NCBI RefSeq assembly: GCF_964204865.1
Contig: NC_135263.1
Coordinates: 10,151,426-10,215,425, forward strand
Length of the DNA: 64,000 bases
Direction of reading: 5' to 3'
DNA from: Styela clava
Lineage: Eukaryota; Chordata; Ascidiacea; Stolidobranchia; Styelidae
Shown here one piece after another: positions 23,639-61,909 of the stretch (the stretch's first letter is position 1; every line of letters starts with the position of its first letter). The notes under the pieces are model-generated. The model did not search any database and was not told where the DNA came from. It saw only the letters and a program-made list of their open reading frames with translations. A program made the translations under genes and the position numbers.

Positions 23639-25667
23639 TCACTTTTTGTCGTCTGTGCTTACACCAAATTTAGCTTTCATCTTTTCCAAATTTTCTTGCT
23701 TCTTTTTAGCATCTTGTTTCTTGAATGTCTGAAAGTGTGTAATTGAACCAAATGTCACTTTTATAATTGGAAAACATTGCAATATAATAATATACATGAT
23801 CCCAATATAATTGAACTAAATAAATTTGTTCACTGTTCTAATGCAAATGTTGGGTGATTTTATCTATATATTAAATATGCAATATAATATTTAAAGTGGA
23901 ATGAGTTAATGACTAATAGTTTAAAGGCTAATATAATAAGTAGCAGATTAGAATAAATGAGATATCTGAAAGGTGACACAATCATAAATGATTCAGATAT
24001 TAGTTCCCTTGCGACAATCTTACGTGAATGTAAAAATAAAGATAAAGTCAGTTCTTCAACCAATGTCATCATTGGTTAAATAAAACCAAACCATATTAAA
24101 TTAAAAATTATATTATAAAGAATAATATGGATTCATGCTCGATTTCTGGAAGCCAAACGTGGAACACGTACCCTGTTTGGATTGTAATATAAAACTACAA
24201 GATATCTGTTGCAAACATTGAAACCAGATAAATGATCACAGGCATTCTTTGCATCAAATATATCTTCATATACAATATATGCAGTTCCCTTTGACTCAGC
24301 TGTAGTTCCCCTGTAATGAACAATAAAATAAATAGTCAGTACATTGAATGTTGAAGGGAATAGAAAAGAGAAGTTTTTAATTGTGACGTAATGGGCTGAG
24401 ATCAATTCCTTGAAATGAACAACAATTACCTTAAGTAAAGCTTAGTGTTCCACACTACATCGGACATAACCATCCTTGGCCAAATATTTAGATTCTTTTT
24501 ATCTCAATAAATGTATATTTTCAATAAAAATGATATCTTACATTCGTATTTGTCTGATTGCACCGTACTTTCCGAATATATCATACATTTCTTCAGCTGT
24601 GATTTTGTATGGTAAATTCCTGACATATAAAATTCTGTTAACTTCTGGTGGAAGTCTCACCTGAAATATAAAAAATATTATATAACAATTGTCATGAAAT
24701 GGAGTTTTTGTTAATCAAAAATTAAAAAAATTTCAAATTAATATATTATAATTTTGAAAACAGTCATTTACACAAAGTATTCATAAAAATGAATAAAATT
24801 TGAAATTGTTGACAACAACGTGCTGATATTTATTTTCTACCTTAGGTGTGGGTCTTGTAAAACTGAAAATTATAGACATGAATGTTATTAGCCGCTATAA
24901 ATTATAGAATCAACAGAAAAAAGAAGATATTCTTGTGGAGGTAAGAAGGAATACAGAAGGTCGATGTTAAAATTAAAACAGAGTTAACAGCACATTCGAT
25001 AAATATTATTAAAATTGGTTTAAATATCCATTTGTGTTTGATGAAGCACTCGAAAAAGTTCTAGGGTAAAAAAAAATATTTTAGGTACGGTACCCGTATT
25101 TATAGTAATAGGCAGGCATACACAGCTATGCAATTTCATGTCAGTGTGAAAGTGCAATAGATTAAGATATAAAACTGCTTTGGCAGTTTGGTAACGATGG
25201 CAGACTTTCAAAATCACAAATTTAGTAGGCTAGTGTCCGAGGGTCGATAAATTATTATTTACTAATTTTACAATTGAATTTATTCATGAGAATTATTACA
25301 GTTAATTGATATAGGCTACGGTACCTTAACTTAATTCTGATGTGATAATTCTGTCATAATTCAGTAATTTAAATTCTTTTTGATGACATGGCACTTACTT
25401 CAACATTCAACAAAACTAGAATTACAAAACTTTAAAATCTGGAGTGATTGATGAAGTTGCAGTGGAGCTTATTCCAGTCATTTATTACAGACCCCACAGC
25501 TGAATGGTAAGTTAGGTCTGTAGGTACGGACACGGTACCGTACTGGTACCGGTATGTATTTCATTATAATTCGCGACGTCTTACGAAAACTATCATATAA
25601 AAACTAAAGCAAAATCATTTACAATTTAAAAACTTACATTAGCTCGCCTTGCCGCTTGCATAGCCAT
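23639..25667 (-). CDS. SF3B6: Splicing factor 3B subunit 6 (SF3b p14), 125 aa, 4 exons
   Basis: The product is the small U2 snRNP/SF3b subunit that lies at the branch-point adenosine during spliceosome assembly in the nucleus. CDS exons (minus) are 25638-25667, 24542-24660, 24172-24310 and 23639-23728; all introns are GT-AG and the joined frame gives 125 aa, the same length as I recall for the human protein. One RRM covers most of the chain: RNP2 LYVRNL at residues 21-26 and RNP1 KGTAYIVY at 57-64. Tyr22, known in the family to contact the branch adenosine, is present. The stretch [20 protein letters not shown] is essentially family-invariant. The C-terminal tail is lysine-rich and divergent. 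The ATG is preceded directly by TTTCAAG, like a splice acceptor. The gene is divergent from HACL1. Confidence 0.97.
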
Positions 25668-26231
25668 CTTGAAATTCAGATATTTGGAATAAACCAGCGA
25701 AAACACCTCTGTGAAGCCGAACAACAGACAAGAAATCGTCAAATAGTATTTATGTATAGAAAGATCCTACGCGTAAAATAGGAATGTTCCCATTTAAAAC
25801 AATCTATTTCAATAGTGCTATAATATGACGCAATAACGCTGGGGAAACGTAACAAGAACGATTCGCGGATGCCCAATGCTGTTAAAAAGTGTCATAAGTT
25901 TTACCATTATGTTGTGGTCATTTTGATCATAATTGCCTTCCGTGGATATCGATATTCTAATGGGCAGCTTGTTTTTATAAATGCGTCGATTTGAATCTAA
26001 TTTTTCCTTTAAACACAGTTGGTAAGATGCCATTTCTAATCTGTTGCCCAATGCTCAACAGGCTTTGTTTGCGCTTAACATCAATTTATTTGCTTGCTCA
26101 TATTCTCGCTAGCTACTGCGCTTGATATAGTTTTCTCTGTAGTACTGAGTAGGGTTCCAGTAACAAGGCGTCCTGCAATCAATAATTCGGTGTTCTGCAA
26201 TCTATTTTGGATTTGAAAGAAAATTTAGATC
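25668..26231. promoter_or_regulatory. Shared upstream interval of SF3B6 and HACL1
   Basis: The two start codons lie 564 bp apart on opposite strands, with no other gene between them, so promoters for both must lie here or in adjacent untranslated sequence. I see no clear TATA box; one broad bidirectional promoter is plausible but is inference from layout. Confidence 0.5.
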
Positions 26232-29200
26232 ATGGACGATGATATCACAGGGGCCCAAACCTTGGCGGAAAGTCTGAAAGCACAAGTATGTATATGTGGG
26301 TTATTTATGCCAATGTCAGAATGTGTTGCATTCTACAGAAATAACAATACAGCAATATGTTAACAATTCTAGCGGTATGTCCAACATATTTACTGTGATA
26401 TTTTCATGATTTTTTCGCAGGGAATCAAATACATGTTTGGAGTGGTTGGAATTCCTGTCATAGAGGTTGCAATTGCAGCACAGGCAGTCGGCATTCAATA
26501 CATTGGAATGAGAAATGAACAAGCTGCTGCATATGCTGCTGGTGCTATTGGATATTTGACTGGACGGCCAGGTTCCCTTTTGATCTGATTGTTCAAATTG
26601 TTTATCAGTTTTCTGTGGCATGTTTGATCCAGTTTTTCAAAATTTTTGAGAACCAAATTTATTTTATTCCTTATCCATTTGAGTACTTTCAGATCCTTGT
26701 ACTGCTTATTATTTCACAATTGAATGCATCTAAACAGATAATAATTTTGCTTTGAAAAGGTGGAATATTTATTGTGTGGATGGTACTTTTAAGATAAGGC
26801 ATAGAAATATCATATTTTTACTGGAAATGTTCAACATTTTCAGTTCAAATAAAAGTTGCTGAAGCATGGAAAATATGCTTCTATTTACTACAGGAGTGGT
26901 GACTCCTCTACGGCCCATGGGCCGGGGCCACGGCCCATCTAATTGGGCCACATGGGCCGTGGCCCATAGCTTGATGGGCCGCGGCCCCATCAGGAAAAAT
27001 TCAATTATCTTAACAAAATTTTCAATTTTTACCAAATTGTCGATATTCGAACCAAAAAAATATACTCCTGTAGTATGTGTACCAGGTTAGGGTTAGGACA
27101 AAAAAAATTCAGATTTTTTACATTATAGTTCTATTATGAGTTCGGGGACTGTCTGTGTTAGCCAAGTGAATAGTTTCTTTACACAACTTGATGGGCCGTG
27201 GCCCCGGCCCATGGGCCGCAGAGGAGTCACCACTCCCACTCTCTATTTAAGAATTCTAGAAAAATTAGCTATTAACCATAATTTTAACTCAAGCTCAGCG
27301 GAGAGAGAGTGGTGAAGAATTATTTGAATTTTTTATGCGCACTGATATTAATGATTTTCTGTAATTCACAGGTGTATGTCTGGTTGTGTCAGGGCCTGGT
27401 CTGATACACGCTTTAGGTGGAATGGCAAACGCTCAAGAAAACTGCTGGCCCATGATTACTGTTGGAGGTTCATCTGATCAAGATCAGGAACAGATGGGGG
27501 CATTTCAAGAATTTGCCCAGGTATATTAGGGGTTATCATAACAAGGTTATGTCACCATTTTTATAAGTCTAAATTTATAGCTATACTTGTATTTGTCTAT
27601 GGATTTTGTTTCCTTATAATACGGATTTGGGACTTCAGAATGATTAGGCCTATTCAGTTATATACAGTATATATTTACCCCAATTTATCATCTCCAGGTA
27701 GAAGCAAGTCGGATGTATACCAAATTTTCTGCTAGACCATCTAGTCTTGAAGCAATACCATTGGTTGTTGAGAAAGCTGTTAGAACATCTATATATGGAA
27801 GACCTGGTGCTTGTTATATTGATATTCCTGGCAATTTTGTAAATGCTTCAGTGAGAAGGGGTGATTGTAGGTAAGCTTCACCAAATTTCTGATTGTTATA
27901 CATCAGTGTGTAGTAACCTGAAATGAATATTTTCAAGTAAATTATTTTATGGACCATGCCTTCTGTATTGGAGAATTTTCAAGTTATCAGTTTTGGAAAT
28001 ACTCCAACCAAGTCACCGAAGTAGCAAAAAATTGCATTGAAGATAATTTCACACATTCATAGATGCCTTCCTAAAATATTGAAAAATTGACTAGCTTGTT
28101 TCTGCAATATGTCAAAATATGGCTGCATTGATACCGAGACAAATATTGTCAATAGATTAATGAATTCTAGTTTGATTTTCACAATGACATTTATTTCATA
28201 TCTCCATGCCAATGAGGGGCATATTTATCTATATCATTGTTTTTATGAAATCTATTTCAACTCGAAACAGCAGTGACCCAACATGATTTGTGAATCGGGA
28301 GGGCAGTAAGTATCAGCTTGATTTGAGACTGATGACTTACTGCTCGCAACTTGGAGATTTAGCAACATTCATTAAATACTGATATTTATGCTTATTTATT
28401 ATATTCAGACAGTTTCCAATGTGCCCAAATCCATCAGGCTTGAAAGCTGATTTGAATGTTATGAAGAAAGCATGTCAGACATTGATGATTGCTAAAAGAC
28501 CATTGGTTATCATAGGCAAGGGGGCAGCCTACTCCAGATCTGAAAAAGAAGTGCTGGAATTTGTGGAGAAGCATTCGTTGCCCTTTTTGCCTACACCTAT
28601 GGGAAAGGGTGTGATACGTGATGACCATCCATTATGTGTATCTGCTGCGAGGTCTAGGTAAGTTACCTCCAATTATTTGATTTTTCAATGGAATGATAGC
28701 AAACGAAATTATACAAAATGAAAATATTGGAATATTTCCAGGGCTCTTCAGATGGCAGACTGTATACTGTTGATTGGTGCAAGATTGAACTGGCAACTTC
28801 ATTTTGGAAGGTAACTATTGTTTATTTTTCAAAATTGACCAACGTTTTTTGGTAGCGCAACCAAAGCACTAACAACAGCTGCAGAAAATTTATTTATTGC
28901 AGTAGTGAAACTAGACTTTCCGGCAGTGAGTTATATATAACCTGTCTATCTGCGTACAATTTTTACAAAAAAACGCCTAAAAGCACAATTTAATAATACA
29001 GATATTGCTTACATATGCTTCTCTAGACATACATCACAAAATAATAATTTGATTTCATTTTGTCACACTACTGAGTAACAATCCTGTTTCAAAATATATA
29101 GAAATTAATAGAATAATACGGTTTTTGCACAAATGCTCCCTGATGTGCCCAAATTGTTCAACTGTCATTACTTTCCAGTTGCCCGTAATTTTTGTTCATC

Positions 29201-32049: not shown

Positions 32050-35000
32050 CTAGCTATCAGATTCATCAAGTTTTTTCTTCCTCTTCTCTTCAATCCAGAG
32101 CGTGATTTTATTTTTCAACTCTGTGTTTGGGATAACATCTTGCATTGTAAGAGAAGATCTGTTAAATGGGTCAGTGGGATCACTCATCAGATGTCTTGAT
32201 ATAGTAGATCTGTCTACAACCTGTTTTGATGTTGGTAAAGTCACAGGATCACGCATTAATGTTGACATTAAGGCATCAAAAAATTCATCAGGAGCATCCA
32301 TAAACATCTCTTCTTCTTCCTCCTCTTGACTGCTAAAGAGTTTGACGCGTTCAGATATTTCCATCATTTTCTGTCGTAACTCTTCATTACCGATACGTCT
32401 AAGAACTTGACAGGCCATTGGAAATAACTTATTAGAATATGACCTACCATCTTTTGATATAGCATGGCAAAAATCATCTTTTACGCAAAGGTGGACATAT
32501 ATTTGGCATAAGTCCACTACAAGTACTTTTGGTTTGAACTGGTATTTGGAAAGATCTCGTACCCTTAGCGCACCCATTTTCGGCCCAACTAATTTTAACA
32601 AAAAGTCATCAAGCATGGCAGCTACTCTATCAGCCAGAGATGGATGACTAAAAAGTTCTTTGACTTCTTTGGCTTCTGTGAGATAAACCAAGGTGTCTAA
32701 AGTGTCATTTGATAATAAATTGTGATATTTTGCCAGCATTCCTAACTGTCTCAACTCCCCTTCTTTTTGCATTTTTTCCTGTTGATTCAATTCTTCCCAT
32801 TCGCCTGCTGCTTTCTCACGTTCAAGGCCTTTTATTTGTGTCAAGAACCCCATGGCTTCATCCAATAAATAAATAGAATCATTGAGAAGCAGGTTCGTAA
32901 ATTGCAAAAACAAAGGATGCGAAACCTCATCAATATTACTGATAGCCAATCTTACATGCTTCTTGATCATGTCATTACAAGATTTCTTCTGCCATAGATA
33001 TTTTAGGATTTGATACAAGGGTTGCCTATAGTGAAACTTTTGCTCAAATTGATTTGGATCGCCAGTAAACTCTATGTCGACAAAAAGCTGAAGAGTAGCA
33101 ACAGTTAAAAATGGAGAATGTGGGAAAGCATTGAAAATTTCTTCTTTGTTGCTTTTTGAATTATCATCTTCAGATAAAGGCATTACAATTGGTAACACTT
33201 CAGCAAGAGAGGCACGCAAATGTGGATTTGACATTCTACTTTTATTTCCCATGTAAATCGTAATAACAAGAAGAATGTCATGGATAAATGGGTTAAACAA
33301 GTGCGCCGATGAACGATCGAACCTCCAAATAAACAATAGCATATCGGTAAGGTTTTCCACAACATATTCAGGAATGCAGTAAAGACCTTTAGGCACAGTT
33401 TCGCCCTCAGGAAGGGGTAGAACAACTCGTGCCAGTGTATCATTGTTGTCTGACATGGCAATATGATTCAAGTATTGTGCTGTTGTACCATGAAGTCGAA
33501 TGCACGCTTTGAGAAAAGCGGGCTCAGTTAACACTCCTTTTATACTCAAATAATTACGCATACCCGTCTCGAACCTTTTGACAACAAGAGCTGCGTGTCC
33601 ATTTGGATCTTGTCCAGAAGCACGAATCTGACGATAAACATCTTCATCACGATTTAAACTTCGATTCAACTTATAAAATTTTTTGATAAGGCCATGGACA
33701 CTGAGATAAATTGAACGGTGTGTTAAGAAAAAGCACTCTGTGATAAAATTATACGAGTCAGCTATAGTTACTGGCGCTGGTGTATTGTCTTCAGTTGATT
33801 GCAACCGGGTATCCTTGTGTAATTGAACGCCATGTACACCCTTGGCATGGGCATCAGGCTGTCCCGTGACATCAATATATGATGAATTAATTTTTAAAAA
33901 CTTGGGAGGTGTTGATTTCGAGGACCCCTCTTCAATACCTTTTACAACAGTTTTTTCTGAGCAAAAGGGCAAACAAAGACGAAGTAATACGCTGCTAATA
34001 TTAAGTTGTGTCGCATCTGGACCAAACACATCCATAAAAACATCGACGTGTTCGTGCGACCACATTTTTGCAAGATAACCATGATGAGCAATGGTATTAC
34101 CAAACCACTGCAAAGTCTTAGAACGGGTAGACTTGTGTTTCAGAAACTGTCTAATAATAGAAAACAGTTGAGAATGGAACCCATCTGTTTTATTCTGAAG
34201 ATGATATTCCTCATTTTCGACCTCAGTTGGACCCATCCTCGCAACATCTTCAAAAAACAAATACGCTTTTGTTTGTGGATCTGGAACAAGACACGACTTT
34301 CCGAATAAAATGTCAAGAAAACTTTTCTTTTGTGTTCCTTCCATAACCAACTTTCCATCTATTTTAGCATCATGATTCAAAGTAACAACTGCTAAGCCAG
34401 GATGCTCAGCGAACGTTGACAAAACAGCAAGATGAACGTGTAATCCGGCATCTAATAAATCATCAAGGCCGAGATCATTTGCAAGAACTTCCAGCAATGG
34501 TGCAAAAGCGGCTTCCATCAGATCAGGCTCATTCATTGAGAAATAATCAGCAACACTATACAAGCAAAGTCTAGGAGGGCTTGTGGGATCCGAACAATCA
34601 TTCGATACAAGCATATTATAAAACTGTTGGTGAACCATTCCTTTTTCTTTTCCAATTTCCATAAATAATTCTGGGCTAATAAACGCAGTTGATATATTTC
34701 GAACAATCAGTTGACGATAAAATGATATTGTCGATAAAAGATTTGGTGGAATATATTTTTCTTCATGCATTAATCTGTTGAAAGATTGCAATAAATAAAC
34801 AAGAGGACGATCCTCTTTTGCCTCCTTTTCTGTAGTTTCATTATGTTCTTCTGATCGCTTCACGAGAGATTTTTCAGGGTCTATTAACAAAAGACGGTTG
34901 AAGATGAGCTGTTCGACTGTTTCATGCAATGGACCACTTTCATCATTATCCAGTAAAACGCAGAAAGAAGGCAAATCTCTTTTCACTTCCTCACTGGTAT

Positions 35001-35292
35001 TAAGGTGCTGATTATCAGTCAAAAGAAAAATTCTTTCCGCTAAATCATTTTTATGTTGGTTCAACTTTGAGTTCGATAATTCACTTGGAAAAGTCATTTG
35101 AGTGACATCTTGAGATTCTTTTTCGCTTTCGATGACTTGTCCCGGCAAATCAATTCCGCTTTCATCAATATGTGAATCAGTTTGAGTTGATAGTTTTGGA
35201 ACCTCCATAGGTTCATTGCAAGAATTAGCTAGTAAAGCTGCAAATGGGTTGCTTTGCATTTCAGCATTACTACTGCTTGCTCTATTATCCAT
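32050..35292 (-). CDS. UBE4A: Ubiquitin conjugation factor E4 A-like (U-box E3/E4), 1,080 aa, single exon
   Basis: A U-box ubiquitin ligase of the UFD2 family that lengthens ubiquitin chains on pre-ubiquitinated substrates in the cytoplasm and nucleus. The frame is open for 1,080 codons from ATG at 35292, close to the size I recall for vertebrate UBE4A. The N-terminus has the NPFAALLAN stretch seen in UBE4A. The long UFD2 core contains VDIEFTGDPNQFEQKF, LLDEAMGFL and LVGPKMGALRVRDLS. The C-terminal U-box (about residue 999 on) has DPVTLPTS, VDRSTISRHL and DPFNRSSLT. These features favour UBE4A over UBE4B. It is intact but has no introns, unlike SF3B6, HACL1, ENPP6-like, FAM47-like and SDHB in the same window. 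The bases before the ATG read AAAATAGC. Two DNAJC4-like genes lie upstream on the same strand. Confidence 0.95.
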   Translation of the reverse strand: MDNRASSSNAEMQSNPFAALLANSCNEPMEVPKLSTQTDSHIDESGIDLPGQVIESEKESQDVTQMTFPSELSNSKLNQHKNDLAERIFLLTDNQHLNTSEEVKRDLPSFCVLLDNDESGPLHETVEQLIFNRLLLIDPEKSLVKRSEEHNETTEKEAKEDRPLVYLLQSFNRLMHEEKYIPPNLLSTISFYRQLIVRNISTAFISPELFMEIGKEKGMVHQQFYNMLVSNDCSDPTSPPRLCLYSVADYFSMNEPDLMEAAFAPLLEVLANDLGLDDLLDAGLHVHLAVLSTFAEHPGLAVVTLNHDAKIDGKLVMEGTQKKSFLDILFGKSCLVPDPQTKAYLFFEDVARMGPTEVENEEYHLQNKTDGFHSQLFSIIRQFLKHKSTRSKTLQWFGNTIAHHGYLAKMWSHEHVDVFMDVFGPDATQLNISSVLLRLCLPFCSEKTVVKGIEEGSSKSTPPKFLKINSSYIDVTGQPDAHAKGVHGVQLHKDTRLQSTEDNTPAPVTIADSYNFITECFFLTHRSIYLSVHGLIKKFYKLNRSLNRDEDVYRQIRASGQDPNGHAALVVKRFETGMRNYLSIKGVLTEPAFLKACIRLHGTTAQYLNHIAMSDNNDTLARVVLPLPEGETVPKGLYCIPEYVVENLTDMLLFIWRFDRSSAHLFNPFIHDILLVITIYMGNKSRMSNPHLRASLAEVLPIVMPLSEDDNSKSNKEEIFNAFPHSPFLTVATLQLFVDIEFTGDPNQFEQKFHYRQPLYQILKYLWQKKSCNDMIKKHVRLAISNIDEVSHPLFLQFTNLLLNDSIYLLDEAMGFLTQIKGLEREKAAGEWEELNQQEKMQKEGELRQLGMLAKYHNLLSNDTLDTLVYLTEAKEVKELFSHPSLADRVAAMLDDFLLKLVGPKMGALRVRDLSKYQFKPKVLVVDLCQIYVHLCVKDDFCHAISKDGRSYSNKLFPMACQVLRRIGNEELRQKMMEISERVKLFSSQEEEEEEMFMDAPDEFFDALMSTLMRDPVTLPTSKQVVDRSTISRHLMSDPTDPFNRSSLTMQDVIPNTELKNKITLWIEEKRKKKLDESDS

Positions 35293-35906
35293 GCTATTTT
35301 TATATTACAGTATAATAATAACTAACAGGGGCTATTCATTAAAAAAGAAATAAAGATTGGCAATAATCATAAATAGTTCCGCAATTTATTTCAATATAAT
35401 ATATAATGGTGGGAAGATAGTTTTGTAAAATTCATACACCTTAGTTTCTTAGAGTAGAACATTTTCCTTATAATCGACATAATAAGATCATAAGAACAAA
35501 TCACAAGACTTTTGAAGCAAATCATAGTACAATGGGTCAAAAATAACACTGAAGTAAGGTTCTGTTCCATTTCAAAAATAGATCATGAATTTGCCTATAC
35601 AACAGGATTTTTTAATTCGGTAACACCATTTAACTATGTCGCTGTCCATGGCCTTTCGGCCATGTCAACTGAAAACTGAAGAAAGACAGTATTTCAAAAT
35701 GAGCTGTTACTTTACAGTGCAACAATACAACTTGAAACATATTGCTTGTTCATTCTTTATCAATTCTTAAGGTCTGAATCTCTGATACAGAAATAGTTAA
35801 CAGTCAATTGTGAGATGCATGGACTAGAATTCATATATAAAGAAATAGAGGTGGCAAATAGTGCTGAACTGAACAATGGCCTTATCCAAAAAATTTAAAA
35901 ATGGCA
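35293..35906. other. Intergenic between UBE4A-like and the first DNAJC4-like gene
   Basis: 614 bp that must contain the 3' end of the DNAJC4-like gene at 35907 and upstream sequence of UBE4A-like. Around 35640-35670 there is a short palindromic stretch GACATGGCC-like on both sides of GGCCTTTCGGCC. No gene is seen. Confidence 0.4.
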
Positions 35907-36590
35907 TCATTTTTTCTGACGTGCCAGTAACCATTTTTCATGTTCAGAATTAAAGCTGTCAGCATTATGCGGCTCCCTGCCAGATAGGATATACATCCCC
36001 CATACATAAACTGCGAATAATACTCCCGAAATAACGACCAATTCTGTTCCAATTGTTGATTTGGGGGGAGGGCTCATCCCTTCTTGCATCTCACCCCCTC
36101 CAAATTTTTTTGTATTCTCCCAATATTGTGTCCAAAATTCAGAGTCAGATTCAGCTTTCATGTCTCTGTATGCTTTTCCACCGCCATAAGTACTATAAAA
36201 ATCACTCCAATCTGTTGAATCATCCCTATTTTTCCGATATGGGCTTTTATAATCCTTTGACCTCTGTATTAAAGGAGATGAGTACATCCTGCTTTTTTTC
36301 ATCAATTCAAAATTATATGCAGACCTCAGGTTTGGATCAGAAAGAACAGTATATGCTTCATTCAGTTTTACAAACTTTGCATGCATTTCTTCATCACCGT
36401 AGTTCTTATCAGGATGATACTTTTTGGACTTAGAAATGAACGCAGTTTTAACTTGGTCTAAATTTGAATCTTCTGGTATATCCAATGTTTCATAATGACT
36501 TTGGCTTTTCCACTGACTTATACAGAAGCCCCTAATTGGAAAATATGGTCGGACTTGCATACATGCATTAAAGACGCTATTAAAAGACAT
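35907..36590 (-). CDS. DNAJC4-like J-domain membrane protein, 227 aa, single exon
   Basis: A type III J-protein expected to stimulate an Hsp70 ATPase from a membrane. Residues about 32-95 form a J domain with YETLDIPE, the HPD signature in KKYHPDKN, and a conserved FVKLNEAYTVLSDP helix. A hydrophobic span of about 20 residues near 182-203 (TELVVISGVLFAVYVWGMYI) is a single membrane segment. The N-terminus is short, basic and non-acidic, so mitochondrial targeting is possible. The overall plan (N-terminal J domain, DSEFWTQYWE middle, one C-terminal membrane segment) matches vertebrate DNAJC4. No intron is needed. It is a tandem paralogue of the gene at 37368. Confidence is high for a J-protein and moderate for DNAJC4 orthology. 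Confidence 0.88.
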   Translation of the reverse strand: MSFNSVFNACMQVRPYFPIRGFCISQWKSQSHYETLDIPEDSNLDQVKTAFISKSKKYHPDKNYGDEEMHAKFVKLNEAYTVLSDPNLRSAYNFELMKKSRMYSSPLIQRSKDYKSPYRKNRDDSTDWSDFYSTYGGGKAYRDMKAESDSEFWTQYWENTKKFGGGEMQEGMSPPPKSTIGTELVVISGVLFAVYVWGMYILSGREPHNADSFNSEHEKWLLARQKK

Positions 36591-37367: not shown

Positions 37368-38174
37368 TTAGGCATCCTCTAATTTTGGATGCGCAATATT
37401 AACACTACCAGAAAATGCTGTTTGTGGCTCATTAGAGTCTGATGGTTCCCTTAATATTTTCTTATGTTTTATTAATTCTGTTCCCTCCCAATTGTCAATA
37501 TCTGTCCTGTTACGAGAGATTTTAAAAGCCACAAAAAATCTAAAAGAAAGTAACCCCAAAATACATATAACAAACACTTTCATAAGAACATCTGGGTTTT
37601 GATTAGAGTTTAAATTAACTTTTCCAGCACCGTGACCTTGTTGTCTATAATAATGAAACCAATAATTAGTTAGTCTGTCACGAGAATGCTCATTGTAGTT
37701 CGTTTCATGCCTCCATTCATTTCGCTGTGTTCTAGTATAACGATCATAAGGGTCTCGATAGGGAGGTCTTTGATAATATTCCCAATGCTGATGTCTATTC
37801 ACATAAGGGTTGTTTCGATATGCAGATGACCAGGCTTCACGTTCATGTGCTGTGTCGAAAGAGCGACGCCTACCTAGTTTATCATCATACTCTTTTCTTG
37901 TGACTGTATTACTTAATACAGTATAGGCATCACTTATCTTCAAGAATTGTTGAGCTTTAACTTTATTGTTTGAATGCTTATCTGGATGATATTCCTTGCA
38001 TAGTTTGAAGTAAGCTTGCTTGACTTCGCTTTGTGTAGCTGTTTGTTTTATTCCCAAAATTTGATAATGATTTTGACTCAATAAACTAGAATAATGAAAC
38101 ATGGCATAGTTTGCTTGACAGCATTGTGATGTTCTTAACAATTTAGCTTTCCATTTACTAAGTTTGAATATCAT
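37368..38174 (-). CDS. DNAJC4-like J-domain membrane protein 2, 268 aa, single exon
   Basis: A second J-protein of the same plan. The J domain spans about residues 34-100 with HYQILGIKQTATQSEVKQAY, the HPD signature in KEYHPDKHS, and FLKISDAYTVLSN. A tyrosine- and arginine-rich linker follows (RQHWEYYQ, RDPYDRYTR), then a hydrophobic segment near 196-216 (VLMKVFVICILGLLSFRFFV) as a single membrane helix and a polar tail. It differs strongly from its neighbour outside the J domain, so the duplication is old. The start is chosen as the ATG at 38174 because TTTACAG, a good splice acceptor, abuts it directly: either a 5'-UTR intron or a spliced-leader acceptor. There are no coding introns. Confidence 0.87.
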   Translation of the reverse strand: MIFKLSKWKAKLLRTSQCCQANYAMFHYSSLLSQNHYQILGIKQTATQSEVKQAYFKLCKEYHPDKHSNNKVKAQQFLKISDAYTVLSNTVTRKEYDDKLGRRRSFDTAHEREAWSSAYRNNPYVNRHQHWEYYQRPPYRDPYDRYTRTQRNEWRHETNYNEHSRDRLTNYWFHYYRQQGHGAGKVNLNSNQNPDVLMKVFVICILGLLSFRFFVAFKISRNRTDIDNWEGTELIKHKKILREPSDSNEPQTAFSGSVNIAHPKLEDA

Positions 38175-39509
38175 CTGTAAACATACAATATAATAAACAT
38201 TACTAACAAGTTTTGATCATTCGTTCATTTGATCATTGCAGCATTGTGATGTAATATTTGTCGTTTGACTGATTTAACTTCAAATTGCACGCTACCATTT
38301 TCATGCTAAAACATAATTTGTATTAATCATTGATAAAAACTTCCTCAACCGCTTAACAATTAAAAAAAAACTGTTTCGCTACAGCTTCTTTTAGTTAAAT
38401 TTGGATCATAATTATTGCTAGCGAGGAGAGCCGCATAAAAACTCTGGCGAGACGCGGTTTGCCCACCATTGCAATAGACCTTATTCAACTAATTTAAAGG
38501 AGAATATTTTTAAACTAATACTTCAATAATAATGTAATATGCCTTCTTGGTTGTGCTGTCAGACTATTCTGGGAAGACAGTAATAATTTTAAATGGTGCT
38601 GCAATCAGCCTCGGCAGCTCGCGTACATGAAAACTGAACGAAATGGATAATCAATGAAATCATTTAGCTCAACTTTTGATTCCTACATTACCGTAAGTAA
38701 GAATACAATTCACAGTATATGTAAAATAAATAAAAGTACAAAATATAGTTCATAGTCCAGTTTACATTCATAATCCAGTTGTTAAATTAGGTTTCATAAT
38801 TTTTCCAGTTTGTTCCATCAGCGATAATTATCCATAAGAATTATGTTATTTTAATAATTACAATCACATAAAACAATAAAAAAGGGGAAAAAACTTATCA
38901 TGAGCATAATTTACTATTTTATATAACGCTTCGCATAAATTTTGTAATTCCTTTCCAAAGGGTTTGTTTACTACTGTGGAGTTTTCTATATTTTTTCTAT
39001 ACATTAGGTTAGGGCCATTTTTATCTGCTTTTCTAAGGAGAGCAATATCAGGTCTTTTAATTTCATATATGATAACATTCTTCATGATCCAAATTGCTGA
39101 ATTGTATATCGCACTATTGATAACAAAAGAATAATTGCATTCAATTTTACAGTAAATATATGGATAAATAAAGGATCATTAAACTTCCATAATATTATTT
39201 ATTAAACACTCATTCGCTAGGTACCATATGCCTGTCAGCCTGTACGGTACCGGTATCAGGATGTATGTACATCGGACATCGCACATGTCAGAATCAAAAA
39301 AGAGTTTGAATAAATAACGGATTGCTAACAAGTAACAAACGATAATGAATAAACGAACATAGAGTTTCATCAGATTCAGAGTCTTGAAACTTTTTATCTT
39401 AAAAAGAATGATCTCGTTTCCGAGGGCTCGCGTGCCAAGTTTGGCACGCGTGCCAGGGTTTGCCCACCCCCAAAGCGTATATATAATAGCCCACCCCTGG
39501 CCTACTGGC
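38175..39509. other. Intergenic with fragments of hAT-like termini
   Basis: No gene is recognised. GGTTTGCCCACC words at about 38458-38470 and 39458-39473, and GCCCACCCCTG at about 39489-39499, look like isolated hAT right termini. Around 39428-39452 is a perfect palindrome-like GCGTGCCAAGTTTGGCACGC. I could not pair these into a complete element. Confidence 0.4.
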
Positions 39510-44845: not shown

Positions 44846-47800
44846 ATGTCTATAATGAGGTATTTATTAATTGGAGCGGTATTATGCACATGTGCAGGAA
44901 GCATGCCAAGTCTTGAAGACCACCATAAACTTCTTCTTCTTTCAATAGATGGAGTGAGGTATGTTAGGGGTGGGTATTAATATTACAGTTCAAAAACCAA
45001 TGTAATATGACGGGCGTGTTTTACTTGCTCTTGCCAAGCCAATACCGGAAGACGCTTGGGGAATTCAACTTGCATGCTATATCCGTTACGTTACAAGCCT
45101 CTTTTGGGTTAGATCAATCCATTGTGAGCGTTAGAGCAATCTTAAGCTGCACTAGTAGGAATATGAAACTAATTAAACCTCAAAACAAATTCAAATTCCT
45201 AAATGATGCATAACACTCTTTTCGGACTACTACACAAAAACTTGAAGGTATTTTTGACGTTATTAAAATGTTAAGCAGCGTCTGAACGTGCCACAATTAC
45301 TACCCGGCGGCCATTAGAAAATCTGTAGTCTAAATTCCTAAAACGAACGAGCGCAGTGGGCTTGCTTTTGTGATACGCATTATGCCTTTGCGATGATCTG
45401 ATACAATGCTTGAACTAGGTATCTTGTTAATGACGTTTCAAACTTATTATCTGCAGGTGGGATCAAACAGACGATATGAAAGGCTTTCGATATATTCAAG
45501 AAAATGGTGTTCGAGCGGAGTACATGATACCGGCTTTTCCTTCACACACCTCTCCTTGTCACATGTCGATAGCAACTGGTAATCTAATACTATAAAAGCA
45601 GTAAGAATTATTTACTTGGCCGAATTATCGAAGCGATGAAAATGTTATTTTAATCAGAGTCTTAAACTCAACGGTCTCGAATGAGTTGTAACCTAAAATC
45701 ATTGCAGGATTGCATACTGAATCTCATGGTGTCGTTCATAACGGCTATTATGATCTGAAAAACAACAGGACAGGACAAACTGGATTCCATGGAGCCCTTT
45801 TCATAAGCGAATGGTTCGATAATGGGCAGGAACCAATTTGGATTACTGCATCTTCCCAAGTAAGAATAAACCGATTCCAGTGAGTTTTACTTCCATTGTG
45901 TTGATGATATTAGGTGAAGGATAAAAAAGGCAGTGCGTAGGGCATAAGATGTATTTTGAGCGTTTTAAATTAGTACTCCTTCTGTGTTTGGTTTTGGGCC
46001 CGCGAGCTTACTTTGAACAAAGTTATAGATAGGAAAATTCTGAAAAAACGGTCCCAAAGCTCCCAACGCCTTTTTTTTTGTAAATAATCTTGTTAAAGTT
46101 TTTCTACACATTTGACTATTGTCGGTCATTTGAAAACGCACAACGTCTCTTCGCCTTTATAAGTTTGTTCGTTTTTTTTTAATAAGCAATAAAATTGAAT
46201 AACAATTAACCAATGCAAAAATTCAAAGGGACTTAAGAGTGGAGGATACCTATATCCAGGTAGTAATTGTACGTACAAAGGGCGGGTGCCAACAAGATCA
46301 ATTTTAGATGCGTATCCAACGATTCCGACAGAAAATGACTGGCGAAAGAGAATAGATGACGTCATATCATGGTTCAATGACGATGACTTCGACTTCATTG
46401 CATTATATTTAGAAGGGGTAAATATATAGTTGTTATATTAATAAAGAACTCACAAGTTTATGATTCACCATTTTCATTCGTTCATCGATGTACCTTACCG
46501 TACGATTATCGTTTGTTTTACTTCTTCGTCCAGCCTCTACTGAAAATTGACACTTGATATACAAGCTGTATATACATATACATTTCGAACATTTTAACCA
46601 AGGAATTTACACATATATATATAATAACACTGTTTTTAGTTGGATGAAATAAGTCACGAATTTGGACCAAATTCGAAAGAAGTTTATCATGAGAAGCAAG
46701 TGGTCGATCGATTTTTACAATATATGTTCAAACAAGTGAAGCTTGCTGGCCTCGAAGACGATCTAAATATAATCATTGTGAGGTAATAACACTGACCTGT
46801 TCTATGCAATTCGTCGCGATACCTCAGTGGCCGTATATGTGCACTGATCAGCTTCCCGATCTATACCAATCAGTAGCTCCGCACATCAACGTCACTTGGT
46901 TTGTCGTTTCAGGTTTTCAAGTAAAATATACCATATACATTATATTTGGTACTCCATTAGTATGCGAACCAAGATGGCGGACACCGGAACGTAGTATGTG
47001 TACCAGGTTAGGGTTAGACCATAATTTCAGGTACAAATACTACGGGAGTCACTTGGCTAGTCCCCAAACTTGTAATAGAACTGAAATAATAAAAATTGGA
47101 ACAAAATTATGGCCTAACCCTAACCTGGTACACATACTAGGTTCCGGTGTCCGTCATCTTGGTTCACATACCACAGGAGTACAATACATTTTTGTGATTT
47201 CGAGGCATTTTACTAGTTTATTAGTGAAGTTCATCAGGCGATTTTTTAATCTCACGCACATCTTCCGTGATACTTATAAAAGTTCTGTTCTGTTCAGCGA
47301 TCATGGTCAGTTGGACGTCGAAGTGAGCTACGTTGACGAAAAAGGAATCAATCTTACCAGATATATCGATCCAAATTGGATAACCTTCGTATTCAGTTAT
47401 GGACCTCTTGGACTTATAGAGCCAGTTCCTGAGTTTAAAACTAGGGTCTACGAAACTCTTAAAAGTGAGATTATAGTTCGATCAAGAGTGACTTCGACCA
47501 GTTATCGCTAACTGTGCTGTAGAACGAACATATTTCTGATATTAAATTTTTAACAGCAGAAGTTCGTGACAAAACGTCTTTTTTCGTGGAAATTCAGCAC
47601 CACCATTTTTAGGCTAGTTACATTACATAAATTCAACTACAATGAAAATTCAACATTTTTTACCTGATTTAACTTGCTTTCCTCAACTGTTAAAGGTGCA
47701 CACAGTCACATGGACGTTTATTATAAAGAAGATATACCGGAACGATATCATTATAAAAATCACGAACGAGTGCCGTCTATTGTAGTCGTAGCTCATCCTG

Positions 47801-49370: not shown

Positions 49371-49392
49371 ATAAACTGATTGATTGAAAAGG

Positions 49393-49690: not shown

Positions 49691-49942
49691 ACATGCAAAC
49701 CCTTACTGATTGATGGAAACACTATTTGCTTAATTCAAAGAGCTTTTTGCATCGCTTCCTAACTTTACATTCCATTTGCCAGGAGTCAAAATTTACACAG
49801 AATCAATACAATATAGTAAAACATATTTATATTCAGCAGACCCTTGCTTGTTGAAACGTTCTTAAAAATTAAAATATACCGAGATTACCATGTTTCATTC
49901 TACCTGATAGCAAAAAAAAAGTGATACAAAAAAGCGATATTG

Positions 49943-55900: not shown

Positions 55901-56719
55901 GTACATCTGCTTGCAATTTAGTAGTTCATGTAAACGTTCTAAAACTCTCCATGCTTTCCATTGCCTTTTTAGCGAAAGGATTGCACGCAATAAACTCAAT
56001 TTAAAAGAGGTATTGATGAGATTCCCCATTGGGTTGATCCAGAGCATGTTTCATTTTTACGCAAATCAAAAACTCAAAAATATTGCAATACCACATATTT
56101 TATTGTGTACCACATGTATACCAAAAAGAATAGATAGTTTGAAGGCGACTGGCGCAACATCATTGTTATAAGCGATCAATAGTTTTTATCTTGCATTATA
56201 TTATCTGGATATCTGTCGTCGTTTTATTAGGAGTGTTTATAATGCACAGTGCACAAGAAGGATATTGTTACAGATCCAACCTTGAATTTTACCTAGTTAA
56301 GGTATGGAGTGGGATTTATAGAGGCAAAAGTACAAACATAGGCGTAAATTAGTAAAAACAGAATTGATTATGGACTCGGTAAAAATGACATGGACTCGAA
56401 ATCGAATCCGAGTCCAAAAGACTCGAATCCGAGTCCAGATCCGAATCCCAGCCCATCCCTACTGTTTACTGAAACAATTTTTCATACATTCATACAGATT
56501 TTAAGCATGCCTTTTATATAGGCCTATTCCTTCCCAAAAATTTAGAAAAATATCCATTGGTGGTATAAGACACATACTATCCTAACCTATTCTTCAATAA
56601 TAAGTTATTGATTTATTTAAGAATTGTGCAGATACAGAGATATCTTACCATGGCTGTGGACGAATTTTCTTGTCTCCCCTGCCCGGCACCAATAACAAAT
56701 CATACTTATTCTGCGCCAT
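49943..56719 (-). CDS. FAM47-family protein (FAM47E-like), 472 aa, 11 exons
   Basis: A member of the FAM47 family; in mammals FAM47E is reported as a chromatin-associated partner of PRMT5, but the role here is unknown. CDS exons (minus): 56649-56719, 55165-55321, 54875-54951, 54135-54276, 53834-53922, 53442-53519, 53013-53151, 52450-52554, 52214-52360, 51704-51915 and 49943-50144; all GT-AG, all phases agree. Near the N-terminus YKERLRTKY followed by GRNWVFIKSNVDDFRDGKP matches the FAM47 head. The C-terminus has the family signature KYGAWYLDPKSW (about residues 349-360), then LHGAKAFRQFLER and KPDFM. Between them are acidic (LDPEMNPEAETDEES) and lysine-rich low-complexity stretches. An in-frame ATG 45 codons upstream of the chosen start exists; the shorter start matches the family better. 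The gene is divergent from SCOC. Confidence 0.85.
50310..50545 (+). mobile_element. SINE copy, truncated at the tRNA-like head
   Basis: It begins at CCCATGCGGGGATGG and follows the SINE body through TGGACTCCTCGTCGCCG, ACCGCTTGTCGGTTACGG and CATCAAGTCCATAC to the CTATCC tail. A hAT element is inserted in that tail, duplicating TCCTATCC. Confidence 0.8.
50546..51246. mobile_element. hAT-type element, 701 bp, with perfect 8-bp duplication
   Basis: The left end CAGTGATTCCCAAA and the inverted right end CAGTGGTTCCCAAA differ at one position, and both are followed by CGCCCCCC blocks. TCCTATCC flanks both sides exactly (50538-50545 and 51247-51254). No transposase remains. It has captured or received a SINE fragment and the 170-bp module. 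Confidence 0.92.
50811..50976 (-). repeat. 170-bp dispersed module, copy 3 (inverted, inside a different hAT)
   Basis: Read on the minus strand it follows copies 1 and 2: TACTTTTAAATAACAGATTG, ATGATAGTTTGAAACAA, TTACCCCATTTTACAGGC, then GTCAAAGGTTCAT. It is the most diverged of the three copies. Confidence 0.8.
51399..51610 (+). repeat. Single copy of the ACTTATCGAT dispersed repeat
   Basis: It matches the left arm of the inverted pair at 49059 (ATCGGTAAGTATGTTGATAGG, CGCGATATCTCACGAAAGCGAG) and continues through TTGCATGTGC, GAAGCCTATTGATTTTG and GCGAGTTATTAATTAATTAG, which is the inverted centre of that locus. Confidence 0.85.
55431..56461. mobile_element. hAT-type element, 1,031 bp, in FAM47-like intron 1
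   Basis: Both ends read TAGGGATGGG inward (10 bp identical) and are flanked by a perfect 8-bp duplication CTGTTTAC (55423-55430 and 56462-56469). Both subterminal regions are rich in GACTCGAATC/GGATTCGAGTC words, likely transposase-binding repeats. Interior open frames of 60-105 codons do not resemble a transposase I can name, so it is treated as non-autonomous. Confidence 0.92.
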
Positions 56720-57468
56720 AATAAAAGATATAACAGGATTACATTTTTTACTTTTACAATACAATAATACCAAACTATACTTCACATGATGACGAAATAA
56801 ATCTGGTAAAATACACTGCTGGAGGACGTCATGCGAAACGGTATCCATGACGTCCATTATGCCTCACCAGTCACGTTTTGATCACTGAGTGTCGCTACAA
56901 TCAAATAGCTTGTCGGTGTGTTATTTCCCGTATGTGCTGATGTGGAGTCTTGGACGGCTGCGTGGTTCACGTAACCCTTGGTCTGTTATGGCTCCCTCCG
57001 CCATGAAGTCAATGCATCTGAACAAACAACTATCTAACCAGAGCCATCTAACTAATCCCACACCTGACATTGATCGGTAGCCCACGCGTCGTAGGAATAA
57101 TGCGCCTTATCGGCTTCCCTTCCCCTACCGGTACGGTATGTGAATTCTATTATTTTCTATAATGATAGACAAGCACAGCACCATCTTGTTTTATATTTAG
57201 TGAATTTGAGGTCTGCCCGTTGGTCTGTCAGAACGTGAAAAGATTGCCCTGTGTTTCGTCAACGACCAACATACTGTTTCGTGATTCGACGGAAGATGTC
57301 GGTATTGAGTCAACTGCAACCCAATAACAAAAGTAAATATCGATCGGGGCAATCGACTCTTAGTAAACTGATAAGGAAGGTGGTACGGTAACGCTGTGTG
57401 TTTGGCAGTGTTTTGAATTCTTTTGGCCTCAGCATTACTTCAGTTTTATTGTTTTTGAGCTATTCAGC
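56720..57468. promoter_or_regulatory. Shared upstream interval of FAM47-like and SCOC, with a SINE fragment
   Basis: The two start codons face away from each other 749 bp apart. About 56935-57150 is a diverged SINE fragment (GGCTGCGTGGTTCACGTAACC, CATGAAGTCAATGCAT, CTATTATTTTC tail). The rest should contain both promoters; no core element stands out. Confidence 0.55.
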
Positions 57469-58238
57469 ATGGAAGATAAATCTCACAGTGATAGTTCGCT
57501 GTTTAACGTACCACTGAATAGCGAGTCGGGGTCTGGAAGTGACTTGGATTTTGGGGAAATATCGTTAAGTTCTAAAACTACAACATCACCTGTTTCATGC
57601 ACCTCAATCAATGATGCAGGTAAGAGCTATATTAAATATTATGATACTATAATATCTGAAATGGATAACTGCAAAATCTAAAAGCCATATGATTTTGAGT
57701 ACAGATTTACAAATATAATATGGTCACTCCAACAAAATTCTAAATCTAGTCTACGGTCAGACGGTATGACATTATTGAGTAATCCAGTTTTTCTCCAATT
57801 GTTTTGTATTGCACGATTGGGATGGTTATTTCTGGTTTGGTGCTTTTCACGATGAATGCCTGCTATAGCATATAGCAGCCAATCTTGGAATATTGCTCGG
57901 ATATTTCACTCAAATACCGAAGTTATTCAAATTATTTGCTTACTTAGAGAAATGAACAAATGGTAGCAAGCGAGGGTTTCTCGGAGAATTAACGATCTTT
58001 AAACATATTTATTATAGACGGTGATAATCCTGATGAAGCTGCAGAAAAAGCAAGATTAATATGTCAAGTACTGGAACTCCAGAACACACTTGGAGATTTA
58101 TCACAGCGAGTTGATTTGGTAAAAGAAGAAAACTTGAAATTGAAATCAGAAAACCAAGTATTAGGACAATATATTGAAAATTTGATGTCAAGTTCATCAG
58201 TATTTCAGAACACAAATGCAAAAAATAAGAAAAAGTAA
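57469..58238 (+). CDS. SCOC: Short coiled-coil protein SCOC, 123 aa, 2 exons
   Basis: A small Golgi-associated coiled-coil protein that in animals binds ARL1-type small GTPases and UNC-76/FEZ proteins and acts in trafficking and autophagy. Exons 57469-57619 and 58018-58238 join in phase across a GT-AG intron. Exon 1 encodes a serine-rich acidic head ([20 protein letters not shown]). Exon 2 encodes the conserved part: [20 protein letters not shown], the heptad coiled coil through [19 protein letters not shown], and the near-invariant [17 protein letters not shown], then a lysine-rich end. The ATG is preceded by CTATTCAGC. The gene is divergent from FAM47-like. Confidence 0.96.
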
Positions 58239-59841: not shown

Positions 59842-59847
59842 TTTATT
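59842..59847 (-). promoter_or_regulatory. Poly(A) signal candidate of SDHB
   Basis: AATAAA on the minus strand about 110 bp after the SDHB stop codon, the right side and distance for its poly(A) signal. Confidence 0.5.
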
Positions 59848-59957
59848 TTGCCAGCCTCCACATTTGAGATACCGATGTTCGAGTGCTGTCAATATCACGA
59901 ATATATGGAACACATTATAACAATATTATACATATTTATCGCCCTGTTATAACATAA

Positions 59958-61909
59958 CTATGACTGGGCTAATCGTTTCTTGATTTCTGCAATTGCTAGA
60001 CCAGGGTTGAGACCTTTTGGACAAGTTGCAGTACAGTTCATGATAGTGTGACATTTGAAAACAGAAAATGGATCATTTAGTTTTTGAAGCCTTTCTTCAG
60101 TGTAGTCATCGCGATTATCAATAATCCACCTATACGCTTGCATCAACACTGCTGGGCCAAGATATTTGTCAGAACTCCACCAGTAACTTGGGCATGATGT
60201 AGAACAACAAGCACACAAGATGCATTCATACAGACCATCCAACTTTTGCCTGTCTTCCACCGATTGATAATTTTCAACACCTTTCTTGCTGGCATCCTTT
60301 TGCTTCAAGTAGGGCTCGATTGAACGGTATTGAGCGTAAAAATTATTCATATCAGGGACAAGGTCTTTCACAACGAACATATGAGGAAGAGGATAAATCC
60401 TTGTTGTCTTTTTCAGGTTTTCATCAATTTTTCTGAATTATATAAAGGCAATATCATCCGGTAAAAATTGGTAAACAACAAAAAGGATAGAGGGGGGATG
60501 TTCAAAACAAACTAAATAATATTCAAAGGAATTTGAAATTATAGACTTTAAATTTTCAGAATAATCAGTAGTTTCATAAGAAATGATTGTCTTTTAGGAT
60601 CTCTCACAGGGCGAATCACAGCCTCCCAAACCATTGCAAGCAAGGTCACCCTGTGTAAAGTCAATTTACCACTCATCAGGGTGGTCCAGGCCCACATGTG
60701 ACCCGCAGCGTCATTATCTGTGGCCCCCGTCGCCTTTGCTGAAGGGTAATCGAAAATCGTATTTGGTGTTGTTTCGTCATAAAAATAACCAGAAAACTTT
60801 TCGACATCTTCAGTCACTAATGTCACTGAATTGATTAGTGTCACGGCTAGCTTAAGCAAGTAGCGAAGTTGAATAGTGTGCCTGGGTAGTCTAAATTGTT
60901 CACTGGCTTTCCTTCTTTTTGGTTGGGAATATATTTCAACAGTTATAATAACTAAATTTTAATGTTATGGCCTGAGAATATAATTTTTTCCGGGGATGTT
61001 TTGCAACCAACAGTATTTACAAAAATGCTTCTAATATGTTAGAAAAATTACCGTACTTTTCTGTACCTTACATTCAGTAAAATATTATAATCAATCATAC
61101 AGCAGTTATGGCAAATATAGTCGAAAGCCCCATTTTGCTATCATGTGAGCAATGAGCGTTTCCAAATTTTGCTTTGAGAACCCCCATCGATGTTCGAGAG
61201 CGCTTACATTTGCGGGAGAACTTTCTCCGTTGTGAAGAGTTTGAAAATTTTACATTATATGTAGATAAATGTTTCAGCGATTTTTCTGGCGTATTTTGCT
61301 TGTTTTAGCTTGATAAATGACAAACAATGACTAATTGTTTGCACTATAAAAGTGTTTGTTTTGTATTGCCCTGTTTACCTATTTCTGACACTATTTCTGA
61401 CACCCGCAAACAATGCAAAAATAATTTTGTGGCCCGCGAAGGCAACAACCTTGGACCACCCTGATATAAATCTTCCTTGTATCTCCACTGATATGATTAA
61501 ACTTAATATTGAGAACAGTAAGTATTCTAGCTCTGTTATCAAATAAACAAACTTACGAAAGGCATGCCAGATGATTTCCACCATTGATGTTCATGGCACA
61601 TGAACCACATATTCCTTCTCTGCAAGATCTCCGAAATGTTAGCGTTGGGTCAATCTCATTTTTAATTTTTATGAGAGCATCAAGAACCATAGGGCCACAG
61701 TCGTCCAGATCAACTTCATAAATCTGCATGACTGGTAGTTTTCCTTTTTTCTCAGGATCCCATCGATAAATAGAAAACTTTTTCATACGAGGGGAATCTT
61801 GGGTCTTGGCCATAGTAGCAGAAGTTCTCAGAGACGAGAATGACATACCAAGCAGGCTCTGATATGATTTTCGCATCACTGTGCGAGAAATCATCAGGCC
61901 AGAAGTCAT
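59958..61909 (-). CDS. SDHB: Succinate dehydrogenase iron-sulfur subunit, 275 aa, 2 exons
   Basis: Complex II subunit in the mitochondrial inner membrane; it passes electrons from the flavin of SDHA through three iron-sulfur clusters to ubiquinone. Exons (minus) 61557-61909 and 59958-60432 join in phase across a 1,124-bp GT-AG intron. The N-terminus is basic and hydroxylated, with no acidic residue in the first 35, as for a mitochondrial presequence. The 2Fe-2S loop has C96, C101, C104 and C116 ([10 protein letters not shown]). The C-terminal domain has C188, C191, C194 and C198 ([13 protein letters not shown]) and C245, C251 and C255 ([18 protein letters not shown]) for the 4Fe-4S and 3Fe-4S clusters. 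The length is close to the human 280 aa. The ATG at 61909 is abutted by GTCAAG, splice-acceptor-like. A hAT-like pair of ends lies in the intron. Confidence 0.97.
60677..61463. mobile_element. hAT-like termini in the SDHB intron, no target duplication
   Basis: The left end CAGGGTGGTCCAGG at 60677 and the inverted right end CAGGGTGGTCCAAGG at 61463 match over 13 bp, and both run into CCCGC-rich sequence. The flanks (CCACTCAT and ATATAAAT) do not match, so this may be two solo ends, a deletion, or an old copy. The left end resembles the right end of the element at 16890-17746. The open frame of about 100 codons inside is not a recognisable protein. Confidence 0.5.

Follow-up and report, generated by a model that had tools for sequence, protein, structure and literature searches.

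AG dinucleotides at start codons

The 64,000-nt stretch of Styela clava DNA analyzed here (the window) raises the question of why an AG dinucleotide stands directly at, or within 3 nt of, so many of its start codons, and whether these AGs are 3' splice sites for the trans-splicing of a spliced leader (SL). A sequence-only reading of the region had counted such an AG in six of nine independent genes. All six of the AG-ATG motifs quoted were found at the gene starts, with offsets to the ATG of 0 nt for DNAJC4-like 2, SF3B6 and SDHB, 1 nt for SCOC and UBE4A-like, and 3 nt for HACL1. DNAJC4-like 1 (start at 36590, minus strand) and FAM47-like (start at 56719, minus strand) had been correctly described as lacking an AG at 0 to 3 nt. 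By contrast, ENPP6-like (exon 1 at 44846..44958, plus strand; Pfam Phosphodiest, 5.6e-76) had been listed as negative, yet its first in-frame ATG (44846) is preceded by an AG at 2 nt; by that reading's own rule, the tally is thus seven of nine and not six of nine. In eight of the genes, no other in-frame ATG lies between the start and the preceding stop codon. The exception, FAM47-like (exon 1 at 56649..56719; Pfam FAM47, 5.1e-15 for a piece joined by hand, with the match downstream of exon 1), has two more in-frame ATGs 43 and 46 codons upstream of 56719; both are without an AG at 0 to 3 nt, and FAM47-like therefore remains a negative. Nine genes were indeed counted, but their independence holds only in part, as three of them are neighbors on the same strand, a related pair among them.

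Chance rates were calculated from the ATGs of the window. An AG was found 0 to 3 nt before 19.8% of all 2558 ATGs, before 270 of 1474 intergenic ATGs (18.3%), and before 207 of the 792 intergenic ATGs with a purine at -3 (26.1%). The claim that the AGs exceed chance was borne out for the original six of nine, at a P of about 0.002 to 0.013 (0.0019 by the intergenic rate and 0.013 by the purine -3 rate). For seven of nine, the corresponding values were 0.0002 and 0.0018, and shuffling of the 40 nt before the starts, with a correction for the post hoc offset window, gave 0.00025. Eight of the nine starts carry a purine at -3, as in a Kozak-type context, which among intergenic ATGs raises the rate of AG at offsets 0 to 3 from 18% to 26% but alone falls short of six or seven of nine. 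The motif string of UBE4A-like was found once more in the window, at 308 on the minus strand, where there is no gene.

Strength of the AGs as splice acceptors

A 3' splice-site model (PWM) was built on 31 cis acceptors of the window; the FAM47-like intron between exons 2 and 3, for which the frame did not close with the chosen sites, was left out, as were the donor after FAM47-like exon 9 and any later exon of that gene. When real acceptors were scored leave-one-out against intergenic AGs, the model gave an AUC of 0.93, with a median score of 7.16 for the cis acceptors. DNAJC4-like 2 (37368..38174, minus strand; Pfam DnaJ, 4.4e-22) carries a DnaJ domain and has its whole coding region in a single exon, as one open frame; its ATG (38174) is abutted by a strong 3' splice-site-like sequence, TATATTGTATGTTTACAG (38172..38192, minus strand). 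This site scored 8.70, which is above the cis median, within the top 0.9% of AGs, and at or above 21 of the 31 cis acceptors. Six upstream ATGs lie within 70 nt of the start, and splicing there would have to remove them.

Four further AGs were each found to score at or above only 4 of the 31 real acceptors and lower than the other 27: those of SF3B6 (score 3.33; exon 1 at 25638..25667, minus strand; TISU-like start TTTCAAG/ATGGC; protein alignment to the solved p14/SF3B6 chain beginning at residue 1), SDHB (1.82; exon 1 at 61557..61909, minus strand; start GTCAAG/ATG; E of 6e-136 to a solved SDHB chain, aligned from residue 19), SCOC (2.38; exon 1 at 57469..57619, plus strand; start CTATTCAG/C-ATG; Pfam Short coiled-coil protein, 8.6e-24, residues 55-117) and HACL1 (3.64; exon 1 at 26232..26285, plus strand; start AATTTAG/ATC-ATG; TPP_enzyme N, M and C domains). 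For UBE4A-like, the AG (offset 1) scored -4.24, below every real acceptor used (0 of 31). ENPP6-like, in which an in-frame stop lies 4 codons upstream of the ATG, has an AG that scored -7.39 in a poor acceptor context; these two AGs resemble no real acceptor. Since the scores of the original six span 8.70 to -4.24, their reading as a single class was rejected. Real acceptors of the window can themselves be weak, with 3 of 31 ending in AAG, and acceptors for trans-splicing may be unlike the cis set on which the model was trained.

Taken together, the six AGs lie in surroundings more acceptor-like than those of AGs that precede other intergenic ATGs (P = 0.0046; 0.039 with DNAJC4-like 2 removed). 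When ENPP6-like was added, the P-value was 0.025, and 0.13 with DNAJC4-like 2 then removed. The excess was limited to the final 10 to 30 nt upstream of the ATG (P = 0.001 and 0.025), where an abutting acceptor would sit, and acceptor-like sites within 60, 100 and 200 nt of the nine starts were in no significant excess. The proposal that these are 3' splice sites agrees with the enrichment and the set-wise context, but individually only the AG of DNAJC4-like 2 looks like a typical acceptor.

Alternative explanations for the AGs

The explanation that we favor, and to which we give an even chance, is a mixed set: one true acceptor (DNAJC4-like 2) among six (or seven) AGs that otherwise reflect mostly ordinary start contexts. 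Judged by its sequence, the AG of DNAJC4-like 2 most likely serves as a genuine 3' splice acceptor, and we infer splicing at this start and none at the others. What is spliced onto this acceptor would be a leader supplied in trans or, alternatively, a distant 5'UTR exon. In SCOC and UBE4A-like, the A at -3 would raise the likelihood of an AG at offset 1, the CAAG/ATG of SF3B6 and perhaps SDHB would represent a short-5'UTR/TISU-like context, and the AGs of HACL1 and ENPP6-like would be due to chance. Against a mixed set are the P of 0.013 for six of nine (0.0018 for seven) even at the 26% rate, the set-wise acceptor context, and the confinement of the excess near the ATG; for it are the upstream ATGs of DNAJC4-like 2, its lack of a median-strength donor within 1 kb, and DNAJC4-like 1, which is without an AG at its start yet has an acceptor-like site (8.37) 18 nt upstream.

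A TISU-like short-5'UTR start context at SF3B6, and in part at SDHB, overlaps with the mixed-set explanation and is possible, if less probable, as an account of its own. SF3B6 reads CAAGATGGC, the first nine bases of the full TISU motif, SAASATGGCGGC; it matches SAASATGGC and not the last three bases of the motif, and SDHB (CAAGATGAC) fits the upstream part only, SAASATG. The core [CG]AA[CG]ATGGC occurs six times on both strands of the window, once as the SF3B6 start, but the string CAAGATG alone occurs 18 times. In the TISU paper (Elfakess and Dikstein 2008, PMC2518114), AAS precedes AUG, genes with translation starting in the motif have a median 5'UTR of 12 nt, and mitochondrial, RNA-processing and ubiquitin functions are overrepresented among TISU-bearing genes. 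SF3B6, a housekeeping gene with CAAG directly before ATGGC, is similar and would be expected to have a very short leader; by contrast, SDHB is a partial match and the other genes do not match. TISU was described in human genes, and its role in this animal is putative. In favor of the mixed set, upstream stretches free of ATG extend 126 nt in SF3B6, 173 nt in SCOC and 181 nt in HACL1, as expected of ordinary contiguous leaders, although three such leaders among nine starts do not reach significance together (P = 0.13).

SL trans-splicing is already known as a mechanism, and has been reported in tunicates, cnidarians, ctenophores, flatworms, nematodes and others, with at least 58% of expressed genes trans-spliced in Ciona intestinalis (PMC7986045). 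Trans-splice acceptors were likewise detected in 9850 of 12397 non-operonic Ciona genes by TSS-seq (PMC11155486). The present starts are like those of C. intestinalis and Oikopleura dioica in having an AG upstream of the start in many genes, and AG/ATG fits the A that usually follows the acceptor AG in Oikopleura (PMC6389100). A shared spliced leader on these messages thus remains plausible yet unproven; that trans-splicing uses most of the AGs as acceptors, with the mature mRNA reading from a common leader almost at once into AUG, we consider rather doubtful. The enrichment above chance and the set-wise acceptor context, better than that of controls, speak for it, as does the finding that DNAJC4-like 2, SF3B6 and SCOC lack a median-strength donor in the 1 kb upstream. 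However, such missing donors are often expected with about one donor per kb per strand, five of the six AGs are weak acceptors, acceptors within 60 to 200 nt of the starts are in no significant excess, and the case here, unlike those in other tunicates, is proposed from genomic DNA. A tiny leader is also not the rule in Ciona, where EST 5' ends lie a mean of 64 bp before the ORF, though the 5'UTRs are also called short (PMC4528069), and the trans-spliced htt message has a 98-nt 5'UTR (PMC1636649). For an SL RNA gene, there was no Rfam match at gathering thresholds in the 64-kb window. A tRNA scan of the window was empty. A 155-bp tandem array at 41426-42015 was viewed by eye as a candidate SL RNA array.

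Cis-spliced 5'UTR introns with their last base at or nearly at the start codon are improbable. The HACL1 AG could pair with a donor-like TTGGTAAGA (score 8.34) 210 nt upstream, and median-strength donors were found for SDHB at -391 and UBE4A-like at -802. Against such introns, a separate one would be required in each of many genes, and DNAJC4-like 2, SF3B6 and SCOC lack a median-strength donor within 1 kb. Donors were detected within 1 kb upstream of DNAJC4-like 1, FAM47-like and ENPP6-like as well.

If most of the AGs were indeed trans-splice acceptors, genomic DNA by itself would have located SL trans-splicing in this animal, a result with a bearing on how often the mechanism arose. On its own, an AG in front of an ATG is an unreliable marker of a trans-splice site; the strength of the acceptor, any upstream ATGs and the context of the start codon need checking as well.

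Adjacent DNAJC4-like and UBE4A-like genes

DNAJC4-like 2, DNAJC4-like 1 (35907..36590, minus strand; Pfam DnaJ, 4.6e-19) and UBE4A-like (32050..35292, minus strand, start at 35292; 1080 aa; Pfam Ufd2P_core, 8.1e-143, and U-box, 9.5e-28) are adjacent on one strand, with gaps of 777 and 614 nt between coding regions and an AATAAA in both. In Ciona, operons are defined as same-strand genes with intergenic distances of less than 100 bp; coding-region gaps, rather than mRNA ends, were compared here, and by these a tight operon was not established. An operon of these three genes resolved by SL trans-splicing, in a lineage with leaders on many genes, is unlikely. Its acceptors would be the AG/ATG of DNAJC4-like 2, a site 18 or 48 nt before DNAJC4-like 1, and one 39 nt before UBE4A-like. 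The two sites before DNAJC4-like 1 scored 8.37 and 7.03, the former ranking second among all acceptors that precede the nine starts. The site before UBE4A-like, 51 nt after an AATAAA, was weak (score 2.0, top 20% of AGs). All three coding regions are single-exon, similarly to Ciona operons, in which single-exon genes are common (PMC2760879).

Genes of the window and their start codons

The window consisted of animal-type DNA with introns (64% A+T), and each of the nine genes named in the sequence-only reading was found to agree with its family by Pfam domains or solved-structure matches. The UBE4A-like gene (Ufd2P_core and U-box, 1080 aa) and the DNAJC4-like 1 and DNAJC4-like 2 genes (a DnaJ domain in each) had single-exon coding regions. 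By Pfam, ENPP6-like carried a phosphodiesterase domain and HACL1 three TPP-enzyme domains, in 9 and 12 coding exons, respectively. SCOC and FAM47-like were matched to Pfam families, and SDHB was matched at E 6e-136. The start of SF3B6 was well supported, because its alignment to the solved p14/SF3B6 chain, and thus its conservation, began at residue 1. The finer names DNAJC4, ENPP6, HACL1 and UBE4A were taken from the sequence-only reading and general knowledge, and are presumed here. The best solved-structure matches of the HACL1 protein (26232-31162, plus strand) were named oxalyl-CoA decarboxylase or 2-hydroxyacyl-CoA lyase/synthase.

An AG at or just before six of the nine start codons had been read as more than chance and as a sign of spliced-leader (SL) trans-splicing with tiny 5'UTRs. 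All six motifs were located at their starts, with 0 nt (DNAJC4-like 2, SF3B6, SDHB), 1 nt (SCOC, UBE4A-like) or 3 nt (HACL1) between AG and ATG. In eight of the nine genes, no in-frame ATG lay between the preceding stop codon and the start used; the exception, FAM47-like, had two earlier ones in frame, at 43 and 46 codons before its start, neither with an AG at 0-3 nt. DNAJC4-like 1, scored as lacking the motif, was indeed without an AG at 0-3 nt. ENPP6-like had been scored likewise in error, as an AG lies two bases upstream of its first in-frame ATG (44846); the next ATG, three codons further, may have been taken instead. By one consistent rule for all genes, an AG was present at 0-3 nt in seven of nine starts.

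Control rates were derived from ATGs of the same window. Of the 2558 ATGs in total, 19.8% had an AG 0-3 nt upstream. Among the 1474 intergenic ATGs the number was 270, and among the 792 of these with a purine at -3 it was 207; the last set is the fairest comparison, since eight of the nine starts have a purine at this position. At the intergenic and purine -3 rates, P was 0.0019 and 0.013 for six of nine starts and 0.0002 and 0.0018 for seven of nine. When the 40-nt sequence preceding each start was shuffled, 1.7 starts with AG were expected, and P was 0.00025 for seven starts after correction for the freely chosen offset window. Thus, the AG count exceeds chance, as had been proposed; the enrichment is real, but of modest meaning.

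Strength of the AGs as 3' splice sites

A splice model was built from 31 acceptors and 30 donors of the window's own gene models (introns of HACL1, 11; ENPP6-like, 8; SF3B6, 3; SDHB, 1; SCOC, 1; and 7 acceptors and 6 donors of FAM47-like). The acceptors ended in CAG (18), TAG (10) or AAG (3). A weight matrix covering the final 18 bases of the intron plus the first exon base separated real acceptors (leave-one-out) from 3683 intergenic AGs with an AUC of 0.93; the median score of real acceptors was 7.16. By this approach, the DNAJC4-like 2 start AG scored 8.70 (top 0.9% of AGs) and equalled or exceeded 21 of the 31 real acceptors. The AGs of HACL1 (3.64), SF3B6 (3.33), SCOC (2.38) and SDHB (1.82) each equalled or exceeded 4 of 31; that of UBE4A-like (-4.24) exceeded none, and that of ENPP6-like scored -7.39. 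As a set, the six AGs outscored those preceding other intergenic ATGs (P = 0.0046, or 0.039 when DNAJC4-like 2 was left out), but with ENPP6-like added these values rose to 0.025 and 0.13, respectively. Compared to random intergenic points, the best acceptor near the nine starts was stronger within 10 nt (P = 0.001) and 30 nt (P = 0.025), and not significantly so within 60, 100 and 200 nt (P = 0.076, 0.21 and 0.34). Strong acceptor-like sites, with scores of 8.37 and 7.03, were also detected at 18 and 48 nt before the DNAJC4-like 1 start. The proposal that the AGs are 3' splice sites held for DNAJC4-like 2; the sites of SF3B6, SDHB, SCOC and HACL1 were weak, and that of UBE4A-like scored below all 31 acceptors. 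Overall, one of the six is a convincing predicted acceptor, one or two are probably explained otherwise, and the rest are weak candidates.

Trans-splicing, 5'UTR introns and contiguous leaders

Six ATGs lie in the 70 nt upstream of the DNAJC4-like 2 start (100-nt stretches picked at random across the window, with genes left in, had 1.96 ATGs on average, and 1.3% of them had six or more). A contiguous leader would be badly obstructed by these ATGs, which favors removal of this stretch by splicing. By contrast, ATG-free stretches of 126, 173 and 181 nt precede SF3B6, SCOC and HACL1 (for random intergenic positions, the chance is 0.089, 0.037 and 0.032, respectively), as would be seen with ordinary contiguous 5'UTRs. 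This pattern is a post hoc observation, and three such genes among nine did not reach joint significance (P = 0.13). SF3B6 and SDHB have CAAG directly before ATGGC and ATGAC, respectively. The full consensus of the TISU start element is SAASATGGCGGC, and this context may account well for SF3B6 and in part for SDHB. In a study of human genes, AAS precedes the ATG of TISU, initiation within the element goes with a median 5'UTR of 12 nt, and genes with mitochondrial, RNA-processing and ubiquitin functions are enriched (PMC2518114).

For a 5'UTR intron, a donor is needed upstream. No median-strength donor was found within 1 kb upstream of DNAJC4-like 2, SF3B6 or SCOC; single ones were at -391 (SDHB), -802 (UBE4A-like), -587 (DNAJC4-like 1) and -792 (FAM47-like), and two at -483 and -478 (ENPP6-like). 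HACL1 had three, those at -725 and -708 inside SF3B6 in antisense and TTGGTAAGA at -210, which could pair with the HACL1 start AG. Such donors have a density of about one per kb on each strand, so their presence or absence is not decisive between trans- and cis-splicing. SL trans-splicing, if present in this animal, would be an already known mechanism. In Ciona, one 16-nt leader is carried by 58% or more of the expressed genes (PMC7986045), TSS-seq placed acceptors in 9850 of 12397 non-operonic genes, the first functional acceptor is preferred, and upstream regions of trans-spliced genes are GU- and AU-rich (PMC11155486). EST 'cliffs' there lie 64 bp before the ORF on average (PMC4528069) and trans-spliced htt has a 98-nt 5'UTR (PMC1636649), so trans-splicing is possible without an AG abutting the ATG. 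In Oikopleura, A usually follows the acceptor AG (PMC6389100).

A row of single-exon genes and other features

DNAJC4-like 2, DNAJC4-like 1 and UBE4A-like are adjacent on one strand (32050-38174, minus), all with single-exon coding regions; the other six genes contain introns. The two DNAJC4-like proteins share 24% identity over 198 positions. Coding gaps are 777 and 614 nt, both with AATAAA, but this motif is common in AT-rich DNA. This row of single-exon genes resembles a Ciona operon, and on the boldest reading it would be one. Candidate Ciona operons consist of same-strand genes spaced by less than 100 bp; 38% of the genes in operons are single-exon versus 15% of others, and the first gene is single-exon in 60% of operons (PMC2760879). 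Directly before the DNAJC4-like 1 ATG is a 7-pair hairpin, GGCATTATGCATTAATGCC (36591-36609, minus), which holds a tiny upstream ORF (ATG CAT TAA).

Two divergent pairs, SF3B6/HACL1 (25667-26232) and FAM47-like/SCOC (56719-57469), share 564 and 749 nt upstream, possibly bidirectional promoters. Overlapping ORFs in different frames at 18838-20980 (minus) resemble a broken hAT transposase; the sole one checked, 18838-19686 (minus), matched the hAT C-terminal dimerisation region (E 4e-10). A tandem array of a 155-bp unit (3.9 copies, 92% matches) is at 41426-42015, and foldback/MITE-like inverted-repeat pairs, 88-94% complementary, are at 39549-40131, 46942-47189, 49056-51614 and 26893-27236.
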